Source of the DNA: a virus
Reading direction: 5' to 3' (one strand)
IMG/VR virus record: IMGVR_UViG_3300025009_000215
Coordinates: 1-41,530 of that record
Length of the DNA stretch: 41,530 nucleotides
Shown: positions 1 to 41,530 of the stretch, one piece after another
Layout: every line of letters starts with the position of its first letter
Numbering within the stretch: the stretch's first letter is position 1
Position numbers and translations under genes: made by a program
Notes under the pieces: model-generated
What the model saw: the letters and a program-made list of their open reading frames with translations, nothing else
The model's database searches: none
Told to the model about the DNA's origin: nothing

Positions 1-163
1 TCAAATCTTACAATTGAAAACGACCTTCAAGACGGTGATATTAGCTTCAAAGTAAATGACGGCGGAGTAGACAAGACAGTAATGACCTTAGACGGAGCAA
101 CAGGCAACGTCGGCATCGGGACGACGAACCCGGGGGCGAAATTAGGTTTTGCAGCCGATACAT
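1..163. repeat. Terminal direct repeat, left copy
   Basis: Bases 1-163 match 41368-41530 at 161 of 163 positions. The only differences are at 128-129 (AC here, GT in the right copy). The repeat lies inside one fibre gene and keeps its frame. It may be a physical terminal repeat or the overlap left when a circular or permuted genome was assembled. The unique length would be about 41,367 bp. Confidence 0.95.
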
Positions 164-5817: not shown

Positions 5818-6087
5818 ATGGGAGAAGATGAAAAAACTCTTGATGAAAAAATGGACTATATCAGAGTCCAAATCAAGGAAATAGCTGGATATGTCCAGGA
5901 TGTAAAAAATAACCTAGTTAATCCTCCAGTCGGTTCAACTAGAGAAAGCTTCGGTGAGGTTATGGCAAATCTAACATTATCTTATCGTCACCTTGAAGAT
6001 GCTTCGATGAGAATTGGAAAGGTTAAACAAGCTTTAAATGATGGCATAAGTGTTTACGACAAAAATGTTGTAGGAAGTCCTGAATAG
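5818..6087 (+). CDS. Small helical protein, possible Acb2/Tad1-type anti-defence protein
   Basis: 89 residues, almost wholly helical. The C-terminal half, NLTLSYRHLEDASMRIGKVK followed by QALNDGISVYDK, resembles small phage proteins that I associate with the Acb2/Tad1 group. Those sequester cyclic nucleotide signals of CBASS or Thoeris defence. The family link is from memory of sequence style, not a search. The accessory location beside a methyltransferase-like gene fits counter-defence. Alternative: an unrelated helical hypothetical protein. Confidence 0.45.
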   Translation: MGEDEKTLDEKMDYIRVQIKEIAGYVQDVKNNLVNPPVGSTRESFGEVMANLTLSYRHLEDASMRIGKVKQALNDGISVYDKNVVGSPE

Positions 6088-6334: not shown

Positions 6335-6345
6335 ATAAAATAATT

Positions 6346-6690
6346 ATGAAATGCAAACATTGTGGTCAAGAAATAAAAAAAACAAAGTGGACTAAAATCG
6401 GAGACTTAGAATGGAGCGAAGACTTAGGCGAAATGAATTGGTTCGAAGCTGAAAAAAAATGCAAAGAGCTAGGTGGAAGATTACCAACTAGGATTGAACT
6501 GATTAATTTGTTAGATAATCACTATGAAGAAATGACTGGAAAATTAAATGAAGCCGGCTACAACTATTGGTCGGCGACTACGTACTCGTACAACGCTCAG
6601 TACGCTTGGGTCGTGCTCTTGCCCTACGGCTACACGAACACCACTACTAAGACTACCTCTGCCAGTTACCGAGTGCGTTGCGTTCGCTAG
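6346..6690 (+). CDS. Zinc ribbon plus DUF1566/C-lectin-fold protein, likely DGR-type variable protein
   Basis: 114 residues. An N-terminal CKHCGQ zinc knuckle (3-8) is joined to a DUF1566 (Lcl C-terminal) C-type-lectin fold: MNWFEAEKKCKELGGRLPTR (about 32-51), then YWSATTYSYNAQYAWVV and SASYRVRCVR at the end. Target proteins of diversity-generating retroelements use this fold and end this way. The last ~135 bp switch abruptly to GC-rich codons dominated by TAC, AAC, ACC and ACT, unlike the AT-rich 5' half. This is what adenine-templated mutagenesis of a 3' variable region leaves. No reverse transcriptase or template repeat is visible here, so it would have to act in trans. Confidence 0.7.
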   Translation: MKCKHCGQEIKKTKWTKIGDLEWSEDLGEMNWFEAEKKCKELGGRLPTRIELINLLDNHYEEMTGKLNEAGYNYWSATTYSYNAQYAWVVLLPYGYTNTTTKTTSASYRVRCVR

Positions 6691-6731
6691 TCCTCTGGCA
6701 AATAATTTGATTATTAAAATAATTAAGTAAT

Positions 6732-6965
6732 ATGACTAATAAAGTTATTAAAAAACATCGCCATTATTTTAAGTGGAATGAAAGATGTTCAGTCGGACAT
6801 ACTAATATTGGATTTTTTAAATGTAAATGCGGAGAAATAAAACCAGGCTTTCAAGCTCCTGGATTTAAACCACTAACTTATGAAAATTATGAAAGGACGA
6901 AAGAAAAGAGAGGAAATGAAAATCTGGGGCAGGGGAAAAGTAAACGGAATCTTAAAGACCTTTAA
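6732..6965 (+). CDS. Small cysteine/histidine protein
   Basis: 77 residues beginning MTNKVIKKHRHYFKWNERC; CSVGH and FKCKCGE give a possible zinc knuckle like those in neighbouring genes. The C-terminal third is basic and low in complexity. It overlaps the next gene's chosen start by 50 bp. Function unknown. Confidence 0.5.
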   Translation: MTNKVIKKHRHYFKWNERCSVGHTNIGFFKCKCGEIKPGFQAPGFKPLTYENYERTKEKRGNENLGQGKSKRNLKDL

Positions 6966-7137
6966 GAAATGCCGAAAATGCGGTGGGACTGATCGCCATT
7001 ACGGAAAAGGATTGTGTCATAAGTGTTATCAGTCTAAATTTCACAAATCATACGAACGAAAGGATATTGAAAGACACCGGGAACTTTCGCTTGCTAATTA
7101 CTATAAGAAAAAGCTTGACAATAAATCTGATAGGTGA
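6916..7137 (+). CDS. Basic zinc-finger protein
   Basis: About 73 residues from the ATG at 6916 (in-frame ATGs at 6880 and 6889 would increase overlap with the upstream gene). CRKCGG and LCHKC form a four-cysteine zinc finger, like the N-terminal fingers of HNH homing enzymes or transcription regulators, followed by a basic helix (ERKDIERHRELSLANYYKKK). Probably binds nucleic acid. It is the last gene before the pseudoknot leader. Confidence 0.55.
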   Translation: MKIWGRGKVNGILKTFKKCRKCGGTDRHYGKGLCHKCYQSKFHKSYERKDIERHRELSLANYYKKKLDNKSDR

Positions 7138-7166
7138 GAAAATAGAATAAAGATATGCAAATAAAA

Positions 7167-7246
7167 TACACGACTACAAATAGAATAATAAATTATTGCC
7201 AGCAAGGAGTAGGTTTTGCATTTAGTCGTGTAGCCTACTCCTTTTT
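7167..7246 (+). promoter_or_regulatory. H-type pseudoknot overlapping a terminator (leader of the replication operon)
   Basis: Stem 1: TACACGACT (7167-7175) with AGTCGTGTA (7224-7232), nine pairs. Stem 2: GGAGTAGG (7206-7213) with CCTACTCC (7234-7241), eight pairs, then TTTTT (7242-7246). The 3' strand of stem 1 lies in the loop of stem 2, one base from it, so the two form a pseudoknot or compete. A terminator hairpin whose loop is locked by an upstream strand looks like an RNA switch, 13 bases before the replication gene at 7259. Confidence 0.65.
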
Positions 7247-7258
7247 GGTTGCAATTTT

Positions 7259-8101
7259 ATGAAAGAAACATTTTATTTCGCACACGACTATAATGCTAGT
7301 CAAGACCCAAAGATTTTAAATCTACTCTATGAGCTTAAGTGGGAGGGTTACGGACTGTATTGGTTGCTTATAGAAAAATTAGCTGAAGCAAATGGTAAGC
7401 TATTGCTAACCGATTTGAGAGGAATAGCTTTTTCATCACATATCGAATTAGAAAAGCTAAATTTGCTTGTAAGCAGTTTTTTTCTCTTTGAAGAAGATGG
7501 AAAATATTTTTGGAGCAATAGACTTTTAGACCACTTAAAGAGTAGGCAAAAAATATCTAATCTAAGGGCTAAACTAGGAAGATTGGGAGGTCAAGCAACA
7601 GCTAAGCAATTGCTAAGCAAAAGCTCAAGCAAAATCAACCAAAGTAAAGGAAAGGAAAGTAAAGGAAAGGAAATGAAAGAAATAGAATTTTCTAACGAAA
7701 ATTGCGCTCTCTCTTATAAAGAACCTCCAAAAGATACTTATCAAGACAAAGCTAAGACTTATAAGAAATTAGGAATACCATATAAACCACCTAAAAGGTC
7801 AGATAAACAAAATACCGCCTGGGATACCGAACTATTAGCGCGCTTTGTAAAAGACAAGGCAATGGAAATGCACCGTGTAGAGGTTTATGTGAACAAAAAA
7901 GAATCTTCTAAAAGCTGGTCAGCGCTTTCAAGGGCAATAAAAGAATTAGGAATTGAAAAAGCCAAGGGAGTTGCTGAGCATTATTTGCAAAGCGAAAAGT
8001 ATGATAAGTTTGGCGCTGATATTTCTACAATGTTTTCCGACCACTCAATAAATATGTTTTTACAAAAAAAGGAAAATAAATACGAAGGCATAACACTCTA
8101 A
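7259..8101 (+). CDS. Replisome organiser, DUF4373 / Lin1244-Lin1753-like N-terminal domain
   Basis: 280 residues. The N-terminus (FYFAHDYNASQDPKILNLLY, then WEGYGLYWLLIEKLAE) is the Lin1244/Lin1753-like domain of phage replication initiators, a winged-helix-like module that recognises the origin. A Ser/Lys/Gln-rich linker (about 105-145) leads to a C-terminal helical part (about 175-265), perhaps the helicase-loading region. The DnaB helicase gene follows four bases later, so this protein probably brings the helicase to the phage origin. Control by the upstream pseudoknot-terminator is likely. Confidence 0.75.
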   Translation: MKETFYFAHDYNASQDPKILNLLYELKWEGYGLYWLLIEKLAEANGKLLLTDLRGIAFSSHIELEKLNLLVSSFFLFEEDGKYFWSNRLLDHLKSRQKISNLRAKLGRLGGQATAKQLLSKSSSKINQSKGKESKGKEMKEIEFSNENCALSYKEPPKDTYQDKAKTYKKLGIPYKPPKRSDKQNTAWDTELLARFVKDKAMEMHRVEVYVNKKESSKSWSALSRAIKELGIEKAKGVAEHYLQSEKYDKFGADISTMFSDHSINMFLQKKENKYEGITL

Positions 8102-8105
8102 AAAT

Positions 8106-9377
8106 ATGATTTTAAAATTAAGAGAAAAATCAAAAGAAATTGAACATAAAATAATCAGCCATATTGCCAACCGGGCAAAAGACGCTGTTTCTGTCTTCTC
8201 AATTTTAAACGAGGATGATTTTTCTGACGTTAAAAACAAGAAAGCATTTATCGCAGTTAAGGAGTCGGTTTTAAAAGAAGAGGATATTTATTCTAAATTC
8301 GAAGACGCAGGACTTTTATTTTCAGACTTTGTTAATGTTGATTTTTCTGACGTAACTCACAAAGCGAGAACTTTAAAAAGAATCAGTACGGCTTTAAAAC
8401 TAAATAAACTTATCGAACGCTGGACAAATAGAATCGACAACACAAACATTGACGAATCAATATCAAACTTCACGCGTGAGTTTAGCCAGTCAACTGGGCT
8501 ATGCGAAAGAGAGCGCACTGACATTAAGTCAATTATTGCAGATTACGAAAAAGACCAAGAGCTTTATGCAGAGAAATACCGAAATGGGGATAAACTTTTA
8601 GGACTATCAACTGGGTTTGGAAAAATTGACAACGTGATTGACGGAATCCGCTCGGGGCATTTTTGGGTAATCGGTGGATACAATAACACAGGGAAAACCT
8701 TTCTTGCTTTAAATATCGTAGTTAGTCTTTTGAACCAAGGGAAAAGGGTTGTAATCTACTCAATGGAAATGAGCAAGAAAGATTTAGCCGGTCGCTTAAT
8801 GGGAATATTAGCGGATATGAACTCAGCTAAAATTTTAAAAGGAATCCTCACTTCAGAAGAATCAGAAAAGCAAATGAAAGCCAAAGGTATCTTATGGGAA
8901 AAAAATCTTAATATTTATCAAGACCTAGATGACTACGAACAAATAAAACTTTCAATGTACGAAGAAAGTATGAAAGAACTAGTGGATTGTTTTGTTATTG
9001 ATTATATGCAACTTTTAAAAAGCACAAATCTCAACGAATACCAGTTAATGACAATGGCGAGCAGTGAGTTTCAGTCAATCGGACGAAAGACTGGAGTTCC
9101 GATCATCGCTCTTTCGCAGATTTCAAACGAAGTAGCAAAAAATGCTGATAGGTCAGTGGGAGGTTACAAGGGAAGTGGAGGAATTGAAGCTTCATCTGAT
9201 ATTGCTTTGAAACTTGTCCAAACCGAAGAACTAAAAACAGTCCAGGAAAAACAAAAAAATCACGTTCCAATAAATATCGACTGCATAATAACTAAAAATC
9301 GCCACGGCATAAAAGGTTTAATCCCGATGAGCTTTGAAGGGTACACAGGAATCTTTTATGAGGGCTACGAAACATAA
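8106..9377 (+). CDS. dnaB: Replicative DNA helicase, DnaB family
   Basis: 423 residues. The RecA-like core has Walker A GGYNNTGKT (190-198), the DnaB-specific IYSMEMSKKDLAGRL (217-231) and Walker B CFVIDYMQLL (295-304). Then come a Gln-switch ALSQIS motif, GGIEASSDIAL and a KNRHG finger near residues 398-402. The N-terminal 150 residues are helical and shorter than in bacterial DnaB. It unwinds the phage fork as a hexamer and, with no phage polymerase or primase visible, works with the host replisome. Confidence 0.9.
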   Translation: MILKLREKSKEIEHKIISHIANRAKDAVSVFSILNEDDFSDVKNKKAFIAVKESVLKEEDIYSKFEDAGLLFSDFVNVDFSDVTHKARTLKRISTALKLNKLIERWTNRIDNTNIDESISNFTREFSQSTGLCERERTDIKSIIADYEKDQELYAEKYRNGDKLLGLSTGFGKIDNVIDGIRSGHFWVIGGYNNTGKTFLALNIVVSLLNQGKRVVIYSMEMSKKDLAGRLMGILADMNSAKILKGILTSEESEKQMKAKGILWEKNLNIYQDLDDYEQIKLSMYEESMKELVDCFVIDYMQLLKSTNLNEYQLMTMASSEFQSIGRKTGVPIIALSQISNEVAKNADRSVGGYKGSGGIEASSDIALKLVQTEELKTVQEKQKNHVPINIDCIITKNRHGIKGLIPMSFEGYTGIFYEGYET

Positions 9378-22754: not shown

Positions 22755-24167
22755 ATGAAAATATTGCAAGGTAATGAGGCGAGACAACGAATAAAAAAAG
22801 GGATTGATAAATGTGTTGATGTAGTTAAGGTATCAATGGGAGGACAAGGTAAAAATGTCTTAATCTACAATGGAGTATCTACTGAAATAATCAACGACGG
22901 GGTATCAATCGCTAGAGAAGTGAATGTTAAGGATGAAATAGAGCAAGCAGGAATACAATTAGCAAAACAGTGCGCTAACCAAACAGACGAGGACTGCGGT
23001 GACGGAACAACAACTACGCTGGTTCTTTTACAATCTATATTAGATAAAATTATCACTGATATTCCAACAGGTAACCCAAGAGAAATCAGAGAGAATTTGT
23101 TTAAGGAAGCCGAAGAAATTTTAGCTGAAATTCCAGTTAAGCAGATAGAATCAATGGATGATGTTTATAATCTAGCTTTAACTTCCAGTTTAGATGAAAA
23201 AGTAGCTGGATTAATTAAGGGAATTTATTCCGAACTTGGTGAAGACGCTCAAATTTCAATCGAGGAAACCTCACGGGACGTATTGGAAGCAGAAATCACT
23301 AAGGGGATGAGGTTTGAAAGCAAAAAAGCCGACAAATTAAGTGAAGAAAAGCAAATTATAGAAGATTGTAGCGTGTTAGTGCTAGATAATGTCGAAACAA
23401 TTGACGAAATAGGCGAAGCGGTTAAAAAAGCAAGCGGTAACGGAGAGAATAATTTGTTAGTGATAGCCAATAGTTTTTCAAGACCAGTTTTAGTTTCTAT
23501 AATGGCGACTAGAACATTTAATATTATCCCGATTGAATATAAAATGTTTACTCCGTTAGAAGATGTCAAGGAATACGCAGGGGATAAGGTAAAAAAAGCG
23601 ATTATAACTCAAGATAGTGTTACTTTGATTGAAGGGAACGGAGACGCTACTGGTAAAATAAAAGCGTTGGAGGATAAATTGGCGGTTGAAGAGTCCACTT
23701 ACGAAAAAGAAAACCTCGAGAAGCGTATTGCTCAATTAAAAGGTAAAATTGCTATTATCAGAGTAGGGAAGAACACAGATGTCGCTAGAACAGAAGCCGT
23801 TAAAAAGGTTGAGGACGCTTTGGGTGCGGTTAAAGGAGCTTATGAACTAGGATATTGTAAGGGTGGAGGGATGGCGTTAATAGATGCAATGGTAAGTTTA
23901 AACCTGTCTTGGTTTAGAGGAGATATTTATGCTAAGGATGGAAAAATAGAGACAAATACCAATCCTCGAAAAAAAATCGTTAATAATTTCTATGGGGCAC
24001 CATACAGACAAATTTGTGAAAATGCTGGGGTTGAAAAAATAGAAGTTGGGGATAATGTTATCGACTCCTATAAAACTGTTAAATATTCATTATTAAACGC
24101 TCTCTCAACTGCGACAAGTATTCTCACAGCAGAGGCGGCGTTAATTGAAGAAAAAGAAAATGACTAA
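22755..24167 (+). CDS. groEL: Phage GroEL-type chaperonin (shortened)
   Basis: 470 residues against about 545 for bacterial GroEL. Key equatorial motifs are kept: INDGVSIAREV (46-56), GDGTTTT (82-88) for ATP binding, and KVEDALGAVKGA (351-362), whose Asp354 matches the catalytic Asp398 of E. coli GroEL; GGG (370-372) follows. The apical domain is present (about 185-340). The loss is mainly after residue 380, where the usual second equatorial stretch is abridged, and there is no Gly-Met tail. No GroES gene is in the window. The position after the capsid gene suggests capsid-protein folding. Confidence 0.9.
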   Translation: MKILQGNEARQRIKKGIDKCVDVVKVSMGGQGKNVLIYNGVSTEIINDGVSIAREVNVKDEIEQAGIQLAKQCANQTDEDCGDGTTTTLVLLQSILDKIITDIPTGNPREIRENLFKEAEEILAEIPVKQIESMDDVYNLALTSSLDEKVAGLIKGIYSELGEDAQISIEETSRDVLEAEITKGMRFESKKADKLSEEKQIIEDCSVLVLDNVETIDEIGEAVKKASGNGENNLLVIANSFSRPVLVSIMATRTFNIIPIEYKMFTPLEDVKEYAGDKVKKAIITQDSVTLIEGNGDATGKIKALEDKLAVEESTYEKENLEKRIAQLKGKIAIIRVGKNTDVARTEAVKKVEDALGAVKGAYELGYCKGGGMALIDAMVSLNLSWFRGDIYAKDGKIETNTNPRKKIVNNFYGAPYRQICENAGVEKIEVGDNVIDSYKTVKYSLLNALSTATSILTAEAALIEEKEND

Positions 24168-24463: not shown

Positions 24464-26728
24464 ATGCTAACAGCCTGTTTAATTGTAAAACCAACGCCAA
24501 ACGAAGCGAAATTGCTCGACAGATGTCTTTCATATTTAAAAGGCAACGTAGATGAGATTTGCATTACTCAAGCAGGTAAAGAACCGATTGAGCCAGTTTC
24601 GAAGGTTATTAGAAAGTACAAGGGGAAAGAGTCATTTTACAAATGGAACAATAATTTTGCAGATGCTAGGAATTTCAATTTTTCGCAAGCGACTGGGGAT
24701 TTTATCTTCTGGTGCGATACCGACGATATTGTAAAAGGAACGGATAAGTTAAAAAGTTTGGTTGAAGAAATTAGGGATAAAAACATCGATACGGTAGCGA
24801 TGAATTATCTCTATGACTTTAACGAAAATAAAGAATGTACAGTAAAACACATTAAAACAAGAATAGTGAAGAATGGAAGCGTTAAATGGGTCGGATCAGT
24901 CCACGAGGACTTTGAAAACCTAAGAGATATAACAGCATATTTCTGCAAAGACATTGAGATAATGCACCTAACAGACGAAAAAAGACAGCAAGGAAGCGTC
25001 AAAAGAAACTTAGAGATAGCTCTTTCTGAAATTGAAAGAAACCCAAAAGACCCGAGAAGCACTTGGCTTGTGGCAAATGCTTACTGGGGGAATAATCAGA
25101 AAAAAGAAGCTATCGAGAGCTTTCAGAAGTTTCTAAAAGAAAGTGGAAGCGAAGAAGAAAAGTACGTAGCGAATATGGTGTTAGCTTCATTGACTGACGA
25201 TGAAAAATACGCTTTGGAAGCTATTAGTCTAAGACCGACTTATCCGAATGCTTATCACAAGATAGCCGAGTTTAAATTCAACCAAGGAAAATACCAAACA
25301 GCTATTGATTTCATCGAAATAGGACTGCAACTACCGATACCAGAACTCAAGATGATAGTTTTCAACCCAAGAGATTATGACTACAACCCCCTAATGGTGA
25401 TGATGAAATGTTATTGGAAGCTCGGGAAGACCAAAAAATCGGTTGAAATAGTCAATAAAATGGCTGAAATGTTTCCAAATGACAAGGTAATTAAAGAAAA
25501 AAAGGCTCTATTAGATGAAGAATTAGGCGAAATATCAAACATAGAAAAATATCTAAAGAAAACCGAGAAATTAAAAGGAGAAAAATTGAAAGTTTATATA
25601 GACAATTTACCGGAAAAAGTGAGGCAACACCCTCTAATTTGTTCGTTGAAAAATCAAAATTTCATTAAAACCGAAACAAGCGGTAAGGATTTAGTATTTT
25701 ACTGTTCTTATACAATGAAAGCGTGGAATCCTGAAATAGCTTTAACTGAAGGAGTAGGCGGAAGTGAGGAGGCTGTAATAAACCTCTCACGAGAACTCAC
25801 AAAATTAGGATGGAATGTAACAGTTTATAATAACTGCGGAAAAGGCGGAGAATGGGACGGAGTAAAATATAGACCATTTTGGGAATATAACGTTCGAGAT
25901 AAACAAGATTGGACTATCCTATGGCGACATCCTAAGCCTTGCGATTACAACCCAAATTCAAAGATAGCGGTTGATATGCACGATGTATTGAAAAGCGGAG
26001 AATTTACCGACGAACGACTGGCAAAGATTGATAAAGTATTCGTGAAGTCAAACGCCCATAGAGTTTTATTTCCGAATATTCCTGACGAGAAAGTAGCAGT
26101 TATTGCTAACGGAATAAACCCTGAAATGTTCGGGAAAAAAGAAAAGAATAAATATCTGATTTTAAATACTTCATCCGCAGATAGACACCTCGAAGCTACG
26201 CTAGATGTTTTTGAAGAACTGATTAAAAGGCAACCTGATAAACCTTGGAAGCTAGCCTGGTATTATGGCTGGGGATTATATGATGAAGTCCATAAAGACA
26301 ATCCGGAAATGATGGCTTGGAAGAATAGACAAGTAGAAAGATTTGAAAAACTAAAAAAAGAAGGACGAGCCGAAGGAGGAACTATGATAGGACACCAAGA
26401 AATTGCAGACAAGTATTTAGAGGCTGGGATATTCCTATACCCTAGCGAGTTCTATGAAATTGACTGTATCTCGGCACGGAAAGCTCAATTAGCAGGGTGC
26501 AAAATGGTAACATCAAATTTCGCCGCTCTCAATGAAACAGTTAAAACCAAAAAAGTTCATACGAACGGAAAGAAGTGGGAAACAGAGGCAACATTCGGGG
26601 ACACTGAAAACAGGGATAAATATGTAGAAGCGATTACCAACTGGGAAAATAAAAGTAACCCTAAGCTAATTTCTAAAGAGTATAACTGGTCAAATATCGC
26701 AAAACAATGGAACGAACAGTTATCTTAA
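24464..26728 (+). CDS. Two-domain glycosyltransferase (GT2 - TPR - GT4)
   Basis: 754 residues. Residues 1-170 are a GT-A fold of family GT2 (LIVKPTPNEAKLLDRCLSYL, WCDTDDIV with the DxD metal site at 85-88, and a VHEDFENL block). A TPR-like helical part spans about 170-390. Residues about 400-754 are a GT-B (GT4-like) domain with GVGGSEEAVINLSREL, VIANGINPEMF and FLYPSEFYEID. Two active sites could add sugars one after another to virion or host-surface glycans. The end overlaps the next transferase gene by 22 bp. Confidence 0.82.
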   Translation: MLTACLIVKPTPNEAKLLDRCLSYLKGNVDEICITQAGKEPIEPVSKVIRKYKGKESFYKWNNNFADARNFNFSQATGDFIFWCDTDDIVKGTDKLKSLVEEIRDKNIDTVAMNYLYDFNENKECTVKHIKTRIVKNGSVKWVGSVHEDFENLRDITAYFCKDIEIMHLTDEKRQQGSVKRNLEIALSEIERNPKDPRSTWLVANAYWGNNQKKEAIESFQKFLKESGSEEEKYVANMVLASLTDDEKYALEAISLRPTYPNAYHKIAEFKFNQGKYQTAIDFIEIGLQLPIPELKMIVFNPRDYDYNPLMVMMKCYWKLGKTKKSVEIVNKMAEMFPNDKVIKEKKALLDEELGEISNIEKYLKKTEKLKGEKLKVYIDNLPEKVRQHPLICSLKNQNFIKTETSGKDLVFYCSYTMKAWNPEIALTEGVGGSEEAVINLSRELTKLGWNVTVYNNCGKGGEWDGVKYRPFWEYNVRDKQDWTILWRHPKPCDYNPNSKIAVDMHDVLKSGEFTDERLAKIDKVFVKSNAHRVLFPNIPDEKVAVIANGINPEMFGKKEKNKYLILNTSSADRHLEATLDVFEELIKRQPDKPWKLAWYYGWGLYDEVHKDNPEMMAWKNRQVERFEKLKKEGRAEGGTMIGHQEIADKYLEAGIFLYPSEFYEIDCISARKAQLAGCKMVTSNFAALNETVKTKKVHTNGKKWETEATFGDTENRDKYVEAITNWENKSNPKLISKEYNWSNIAKQWNEQLS

Positions 26729-27555
26729 CGAATACCGCGCTAGACCATTATTACGGAACTGAAACCTGGACTTATGCAATGGCGAAAGAATTGTCCAAGA
26801 ATTACAAAGTTAAGGTATTTACATTCACTAAAGGCAAGATGTCTGAAAAGATAGAAGAGTTTGCCGAAGTAGTAACTGAAATGCCTCAAGGCGATATTTA
26901 TATAGTCAATCACATAAACTGTTATGGTAAAGTTCCTCAAAATAAACCGATAATATTTACATCGCACGGAAGAAGTGGATTAGAACAGTTTCCAGCTGAC
27001 GGATGTTTACAAGTCGGAGTTACAGAGGAAACAGCAAAAGGGAGAGAGGTCATAAGAAACGGAATTGATTGCGAAAGATTTTACGAAACACCGATAAACA
27101 AGGAATTGAAAACAGTGCTTTACCTATCACATCCAGATTATGGACGAGCTAAGGAGATAATAAGAGAAGCCTGTCAAGGGCTGGAACTCATAACCATAGA
27201 AGAAGAAACATTTAAGATAGAGAATTTAATCCATAAATCTGATTTAGTCATCACACTGGGAAGGGGAATTTTAGAAAGCCTATCTTGCGGAAGAAATGTA
27301 ATCTCGGCGGATTGGAGAGATGGCTGGATGGATGGGCTAAAAGGTGGAGGGATGATCACGGAGGATAATTTTGATTTTTTAAAGACTCACGCATTTTCCG
27401 GAAGAAACGCACCGATAGAATTTACCGCCGAAAGATTGAGGGAAGAATTTAAAAAATACGACTCTGAGATGAATTTAAGACATAAGATACAAGAAGAATT
27501 TAATATAAAAACTCAATGCGAGAAATACCTGACATATTTCAAAAAAGATATTTAG
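26707..27555 (+). CDS. GT4-like glycosyltransferase
   Basis: 282 residues. GTETWTYAMAKELSKNYKVK (17-36) is the donor-domain glycine loop style of GT4 enzymes; ITFTSHGRSGLEQF-type, RNGIDCERFY and a later TLGRGILESLSCGRNVI (the usual acceptor-site ExxxxG motif) support this. It is short for GT-B (normally 350-400), so loops or a helix may be missing. Overlaps both neighbours. Confidence 0.7.
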   Translation: MERTVILTNTALDHYYGTETWTYAMAKELSKNYKVKVFTFTKGKMSEKIEEFAEVVTEMPQGDIYIVNHINCYGKVPQNKPIIFTSHGRSGLEQFPADGCLQVGVTEETAKGREVIRNGIDCERFYETPINKELKTVLYLSHPDYGRAKEIIREACQGLELITIEEETFKIENLIHKSDLVITLGRGILESLSCGRNVISADWRDGWMDGLKGGGMITEDNFDFLKTHAFSGRNAPIEFTAERLREEFKKYDSEMNLRHKIQEEFNIKTQCEKYLTYFKKDI

Positions 27556-41163: not shown

Positions 41164-41530
41164 ATGAACAAATTTGACAAAATACTAGGAGAATATAGAG
41201 AAAAAGATGAAACAGATATCACAGGGAAAGCTTCCGTGGCTCTTGATAACCTTGCTTCTGTAGCTATCAACACTTCTTTAATTTCAGATACTGACTCCAC
41301 AGACGACCTCGGTTCAATTACAAAACAATGGGCGAATGTCCACACCGATAGACTGGTTAGCACTATTTCAAATCTTACAATTGAAAACGACCTTCAAGAC
41401 GGTGATATTAGCTTCAAAGTAAATGACGGCGGAGTAGACAAGACAGTAATGACCTTAGACGGAGCAACAGGCAACGTCGGCATCGGGACGACGAGTCCGG
41501 GGGCGAAATTAGGTTTTGCAGCCGATACAT
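41164..41530 (+). CDS. Tail fibre protein, N-terminal part (continues at base 1)
   Basis: Starts MNKFDKILGEYREKDETDIT; ISDTDSTDDLGSITKQWANV is the entry to a fibre repeat (the LGSxTKxWxNV pattern of head/tail fibre repeats). It then reaches the GNVGIGTTSP motif inside the terminal repeat. The frame continues without a break at base 1 (residue 69 onward), giving a ~343-residue fibre. Confidence 0.75.
   Translation, partial: MNKFDKILGEYREKDETDITGKASVALDNLASVAINTSLISDTDSTDDLGSITKQWANVHTDRLVSTISNLTIENDLQDGDISFKVNDGGVDKTVMTLDGATGNVGIGTTSPGAKLGFAADT
41368..41530. repeat. Terminal direct repeat, right copy
   Basis: Matches 1-163 with two differences (bases corresponding to 128-129). The right-copy bases agree with the internal fibre repeat at 409-438. 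Confidence 0.95.

Follow-up and report, generated by a model that had tools for sequence, protein, structure and literature searches.

The window, as the whole analysed stretch of 41,530 bp is called here, is a virus record (IMGVR_UViG_3300025009_000215) with genes for a GH25 lysin, DnaB helicase, Gp157, terminase, a head-tail adaptor-like protein, a major head protein and tail-fibre-like proteins; neither an Rfam family nor a tRNA was found in it. The sample IMG 3300025087 also contains a fragment of this phage (L157). Immediately upstream of the replication genes, among small ORFs and away from the tail genes and the structural module, lies a short gene which the first-pass annotation had marked as the likely target of a diversity-generating retroelement (DGR) whose reverse transcriptase (RT) is not encoded nearby. 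The features on which the analysis relies are as follows.

6346..6690, plus strand: target gene encoding a 114-aa Lcl_C/DUF1566 protein (Pfam PF07603, E 1.2e-12; 61% orthologue in a second virus; profile match to 8q4e)
6352..6363, plus strand: single CxxC (CKHC), falling short of a zinc knuckle (seen in the sequence, missing from the second viral orthologue)
about 6553..6687, plus strand: variable repeat (VR) (comparison of template repeats, TRs, with VRs; wobble bases 12/12; GC3 0.73)
6670..6687, plus strand: constant 3′ end of the VR, CGAGTGCGTTGCGTTCGC (RVRCVR), at the IMH position (16/18 bases equal to the TR and VR of the cellular relative G003)
1..163, no strand assigned: left record end, overlapping the right end (98.8% identity to 41368-41530, end to end)
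41368..41530, no strand assigned: right record end, overlapping the left end within a tail-fibre-like ORF (same overlap)

The presence of a DUF1566/C-lectin domain in the 114-aa product was confirmed, as the Pfam match lies above threshold, and a profile search additionally aligned the protein with the solved C-terminal domain of Lcl/HbP1 (8q4e, E 2.5e-8). Assignment of the fold rests on these two matches since the AlphaFold model (mean pLDDT 50) failed and was discarded. The zinc knuckle proposed to be fused to the lectin domain turned out to be unsupported: the lone CKHC is devoid of a second ligand pair, no Pfam zinc family matches the protein, and the motif does not occur in the second viral orthologue. 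Neither a membrane segment nor a signal peptide was evident by eye, and since the gene also resides among small ORFs next to replication genes, its product, which presumably binds a ligand, is more likely an intracellular binder (e.g., a counter-defence factor) than a receptor-binding protein.

The C-terminal 45 codons of the ORF constitute the VR, which thus occupies the 3′ end of a gene for a lectin-like domain, and the protein does terminate in YRVRCVR as annotated. The sudden enrichment of its last ~135 bp by GC also held: segment 6556-6690 contains 55% GC compared to 34% in the preceding part of the ORF and 36% in the whole genome, and the GC-richest 135-bp stretches of the record all overlap it. 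In terms of GC3 the VR reaches 0.73 versus 0.29 in the genome as well as in codons 1-69 of the target ORF, the best value among 7717 other 45-codon windows being 0.58. The 16 VR codons standing at template AAY/ATC positions are all NNY, i.e., 16/16 end in pyrimidine (p 2.8e-6) and 14 of them in C (p 5.7e-6). The CGAGTGCGTTGCGTTCGC terminus probably acts as IMH. Downstream of the VR, no significant hairpin was detected by the BPP-1 type test (z −0.09); of the three cellular relatives tested in the same way, the VRs of G003 and G001 are also free of such a structure while that of G169 has it, so that a BPP-1-type hairpin is not a defining element for this lineage.

Related templates were sought by replacing the putative (guessed) template adenines with N and scanning the resulting core pattern GCNTGGNNCGTGNNCTTGNNCNNCGGCNNCNCGNNC (window positions 6604-6639) over 84,980 species genomes. 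Eight matching stretches were obtained, and seven of them proved to be DGR-type repeats, six residing in metagenome-assembled genomes (MAGs) named as Patescibacteria groups (Parcubacteria, Woesebacteria, and Patescibacteria) and the seventh in a MAG lacking classification; the remaining stretch, L136 from Rhodospirillaceae, was rejected as a chance match. G169 was added after 380 genomes had been drawn from the same phylum, while a 121-aa Lcl_C protein of G026 (L193) was set aside as generic Lcl_C and not DGR-like. In G003 (JAKJED010000010.1) and G169 the cassette follows the order target VR, RT, TR, and bAvd, with Pfam support for both RT and bAvd, and it is in such canonical cassettes that the templates closest to the window VR, at about 75% identity, are found. 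No template identical to the VR outside adenines was encountered, and the differences of the nearest ones at non-adenine sites are mostly synonymous or third-position; neither the order of G003 (7 genomes) nor that of G169 (397 genomes) contained a closer TR. These Patescibacteria loci probably belong to clade 2 of Roux et al. 2021 (PMC8144416), who found the Patescibacteria DGR clade to be almost entirely cell-encoded.

Two observations concern the cellular systems themselves. The stretch GTGAACTTGAACAACGGCAACACGAACAACAA is identical, wobble bases included, in the TR cores of four MAGs, G001-G004 (L135, L134, L137, and L138, the last being counted as a template from its sequence alone), and this identity suggests strong constraint on the TR at the nucleotide level. 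In Athens0714_12 (L201, VMGY01000005.1), a DGR with TR, VR, and bAvd occupies approximately positions 6343-8457, where RT matches come in pieces with the central part missing; despite the broken RT, its TR and VR differ almost only at adenines.

As a positive control, eight cognate TR/VR pairs were compared, and changes in codon positions 1 and 2 affected 11-20 of about 41 A sites and hardly any other site. The same comparison of the window VR with the TR of G003, which is its nearest but non-cognate counterpart, gave 15/39 changed adenines versus 3/49 changed non-adenines (Fisher p=0.0003). The three exceptions sit in two codons, 32 and 38; in codon 38 the window has the codon of the G169 TR (AGT), and in codon 32 the AAT of the G169 TR is one adenine change away from the ACT of the window. 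At third positions 14/43 non-A sites differ, and for this reason the G003 TR has to be regarded as a relative rather than the own template of the window VR. Wobble bases were evaluated at those positions, 12 in all, whose base is common to at least 80% of ten TRs: the window matches the TR consensus at 12/12 of them, with 2.1 expected from its own codon usage. Because related TR/VR pairs adjoin RTs in Patescibacteria, the status of the gene as a DGR target, which had been proposed from its composition, is strongly supported, and its last 135 bp may be considered a genuine DGR-type VR.

The similarity to Lcl_C/DUF1566 DGRs of Patescibacteria (CPR) covers the C-terminal position of the Lcl_C domain, the VR pattern YWSAT...AW.V.L..G.TN...K....VRCVR, the AAY template codons, and near-identical wobble bases of the TR core. 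Their targets, however, are large chromosomal genes located beside RT, TR, and bAvd, whereas the window encodes a 114-aa phage protein and its record contains none of these elements: neither RT nor bAvd was found, tblastn gave no significant match to RT or Avd, and no template copy is present.

Single-protein search for the target returned nothing in viral contigs, phage records, and plasmids, and scans of viral contigs with the VR 3′ anchor, the 5′ anchor, and the core pattern yielded chance matches or none. Searching with a degenerate version of the conserved GRLPTRIELI motif brought up a single viral contig, IMGVR_UViG_3300033145_000637, which encodes a target 61% identical to that of the window. 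The N-terminal block KWTKIG(D/N)LEWSE.LGEM is shared by both viral targets and missing from the cellular ones, while the two viruses are otherwise dissimilar, with five ORF matches at E<=1e-3 and the target by far the best of them. The VR of the second virus carries TR-like wobble bases at 10/12 positions (p 6e-5, own codon usage); its ..DSRCVR end is common, among the ten TRs, only to the Athens0714_12 template, in comparison with which the adenine test is marginal (p=0.05). Thus there is a virus-specific target family, whose VRs seem to track different Patescibacteria templates. Neither RT nor bAvd was found in the 45.8 kb of this contig; its target is located near the contig end and the ends do not overlap, so that an RT of this virus could lie beyond the contig. 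On the minus strand of the same contig (about 940-910), the target frame has no ATG, GTG, or TTG before the conserved N-terminal part; just upstream, beside an A-AAA-AAG run, a TAA closes an ORF for a membrane protein that is in frame with the target.

The reading we favor as the most probable one takes the gene to be a remote DGR target that resides on a phage and is diversified in trans by a DGR of the host. In the course of infection, RT, bAvd, and template-repeat RNA of the Patescibacteria Lcl_C type, all supplied by the host chromosome, would produce adenine-mutagenized cDNA, which would be incorporated at the homologous segment 6553-6687, rewriting about 16 codons of the phage protein and conferring hypervariation on a phage that does not carry the element. 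The phage would accordingly infect a Patescibacterium with a matching DGR, a host assignment read from the VR, as a terminase-based search gave no host link; retrohoming is assumed to operate in trans and to be still active. The finding of an orthologous target in the second RT-less virus record strengthens this interpretation. Its extension, which we regard as evenly balanced between acceptance and doubt, is that small orphan lectin targets encoded in the early region form a family carried by Patescibacteria phages and exploiting the host chromosomal DGR, so that RT and template RNA kept for surface proteins of the host hypermutate the phage gene in trans, the VRs of dissimilar phages being tuned to different lineages of host DGRs.

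Separate steps of such a scheme have precedents. Laboratory work with BPP-1 showed that avd/brt/TR supplied on a plasmid diversify a VR carried by a recipient, either phage or plasmid (PMC3240598), and in E. coli a DGR placed on a plasmid edited a reporter located separately from it (PMC12875486). Remote targets within the same genome are described for cyanobacteria (PMC7517822) and for single phages, along with second distal VRs in gut prophages (PMC12629997). With self-contained phage DGRs, such as those of Bordetella BPP-1 and others, the present case shares a phage-borne target hypermutated at adenines, and the BPP-1 DGR does work in trans from a plasmid in the laboratory. Those phages, however, possess an RT, Avd, and TR of their own, and what they diversify is mostly tail proteins; here all three are missing from the record, and the position of the gene is outside the structural module. 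Known remote targets (PMC7517822, PMC12629997) are likewise positioned away from the RT cassette and recognized by homology to the TR, but their RT belongs to the same genome, while the one proposed here belongs to another, that of the host. None of the papers we searched described a host DGR that diversifies a VR carried by a phage, an earlier mention in works on CPR DGRs being possible; in the large metagenome survey of Roux et al., remote targets were not detectable by the approach used (PMC8144416).

The alternative that survives best, although we consider it unlikely, implies that the VR was captured, i.e., that the phage took up the 3′-terminal part of a DGR target of the host by homologous recombination or by one past retrohoming event, leaving an ordinary lectin-like gene which is no longer diversified or whose only variation comes from recombining occasionally with host VRs. 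Capture of host segments by phages is common, inactive systems do exist, as exemplified by the broken RT of the Athens0714_12 relative, no cognate TR was found, and activity of the VR is presumed. Yet neither GC3 nor the wobble bases have drifted to phage values, the fraction of changed adenines (15/39) equals that of cognate cellular VRs (11-20 of about 41), and the two otherwise dissimilar viruses share the virus-specific N-terminal part while their VRs are differently derived.

Still less probable is an ordinary phage-borne DGR with RT, Avd, and TR confined to a genome part missing from the record. Known phage DGRs carry their own RT, and IMG/VR classifies the record as linear, so it might be a fragment. 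On the other hand, the 163-bp ends differ only at two adjacent bases and fall within what reads as one tail-fibre-like ORF; due to this overlap the record is probably a near-complete genome closing on itself, with a possible gap within the repetitive fibre region. The target is flanked by 6.3 kb and 35 kb free of RT, and none of RT, TR, and Avd, which together would make up a complete phage-borne DGR, was found in the record. Profile search of viral contigs for relatives of the Patescibacteria RTs gave none, and the second virus record is also without RT. The statement of the first-pass annotation that this genome contains no RT or template is therefore correct for the record but too broad in its wording, given that the record is only probably near-complete. 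That an ordinary lectin-like gene acquired such a composition by chance, with no DGR involved, is hardly credible: Lcl_C domains do occur without DGRs, but the agreement with TRs at the DNA level, including 12/12 wobble bases, and the restriction of changes to adenines (p=3e-4) would not be expected for such a gene, and the codon composition is unlike that of any other genome part.

If phages do exploit host DGRs, many hypervariable phage genes would be invisible to RT-centered surveys, the DGR would belong to host and virus alike, and the VR might serve as a marker linking uncultured phages to their Patescibacteria hosts. The locus described here makes the action of DGRs across genomes in nature directly testable.

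Some other regions of the window deserve mention on their own. Close upstream of the target, an 89-aa ORF (5818-6087) matches the Acb2/Tad1 hairpin domain (PF24729) below threshold (E 0.015), a similarity for which no PDB or phage support was obtained. Directly after the major head protein gene, a phage chaperonin (Cpn60/GroEL-like, PF00118 E 1.5e-18) is encoded at 22755-24167, and the structural module also accommodates glycosyltransferase genes (24464-27555), represented by a 754-aa protein combining two glycosyltransferase domains with TPR-like repeats and followed by another ORF.
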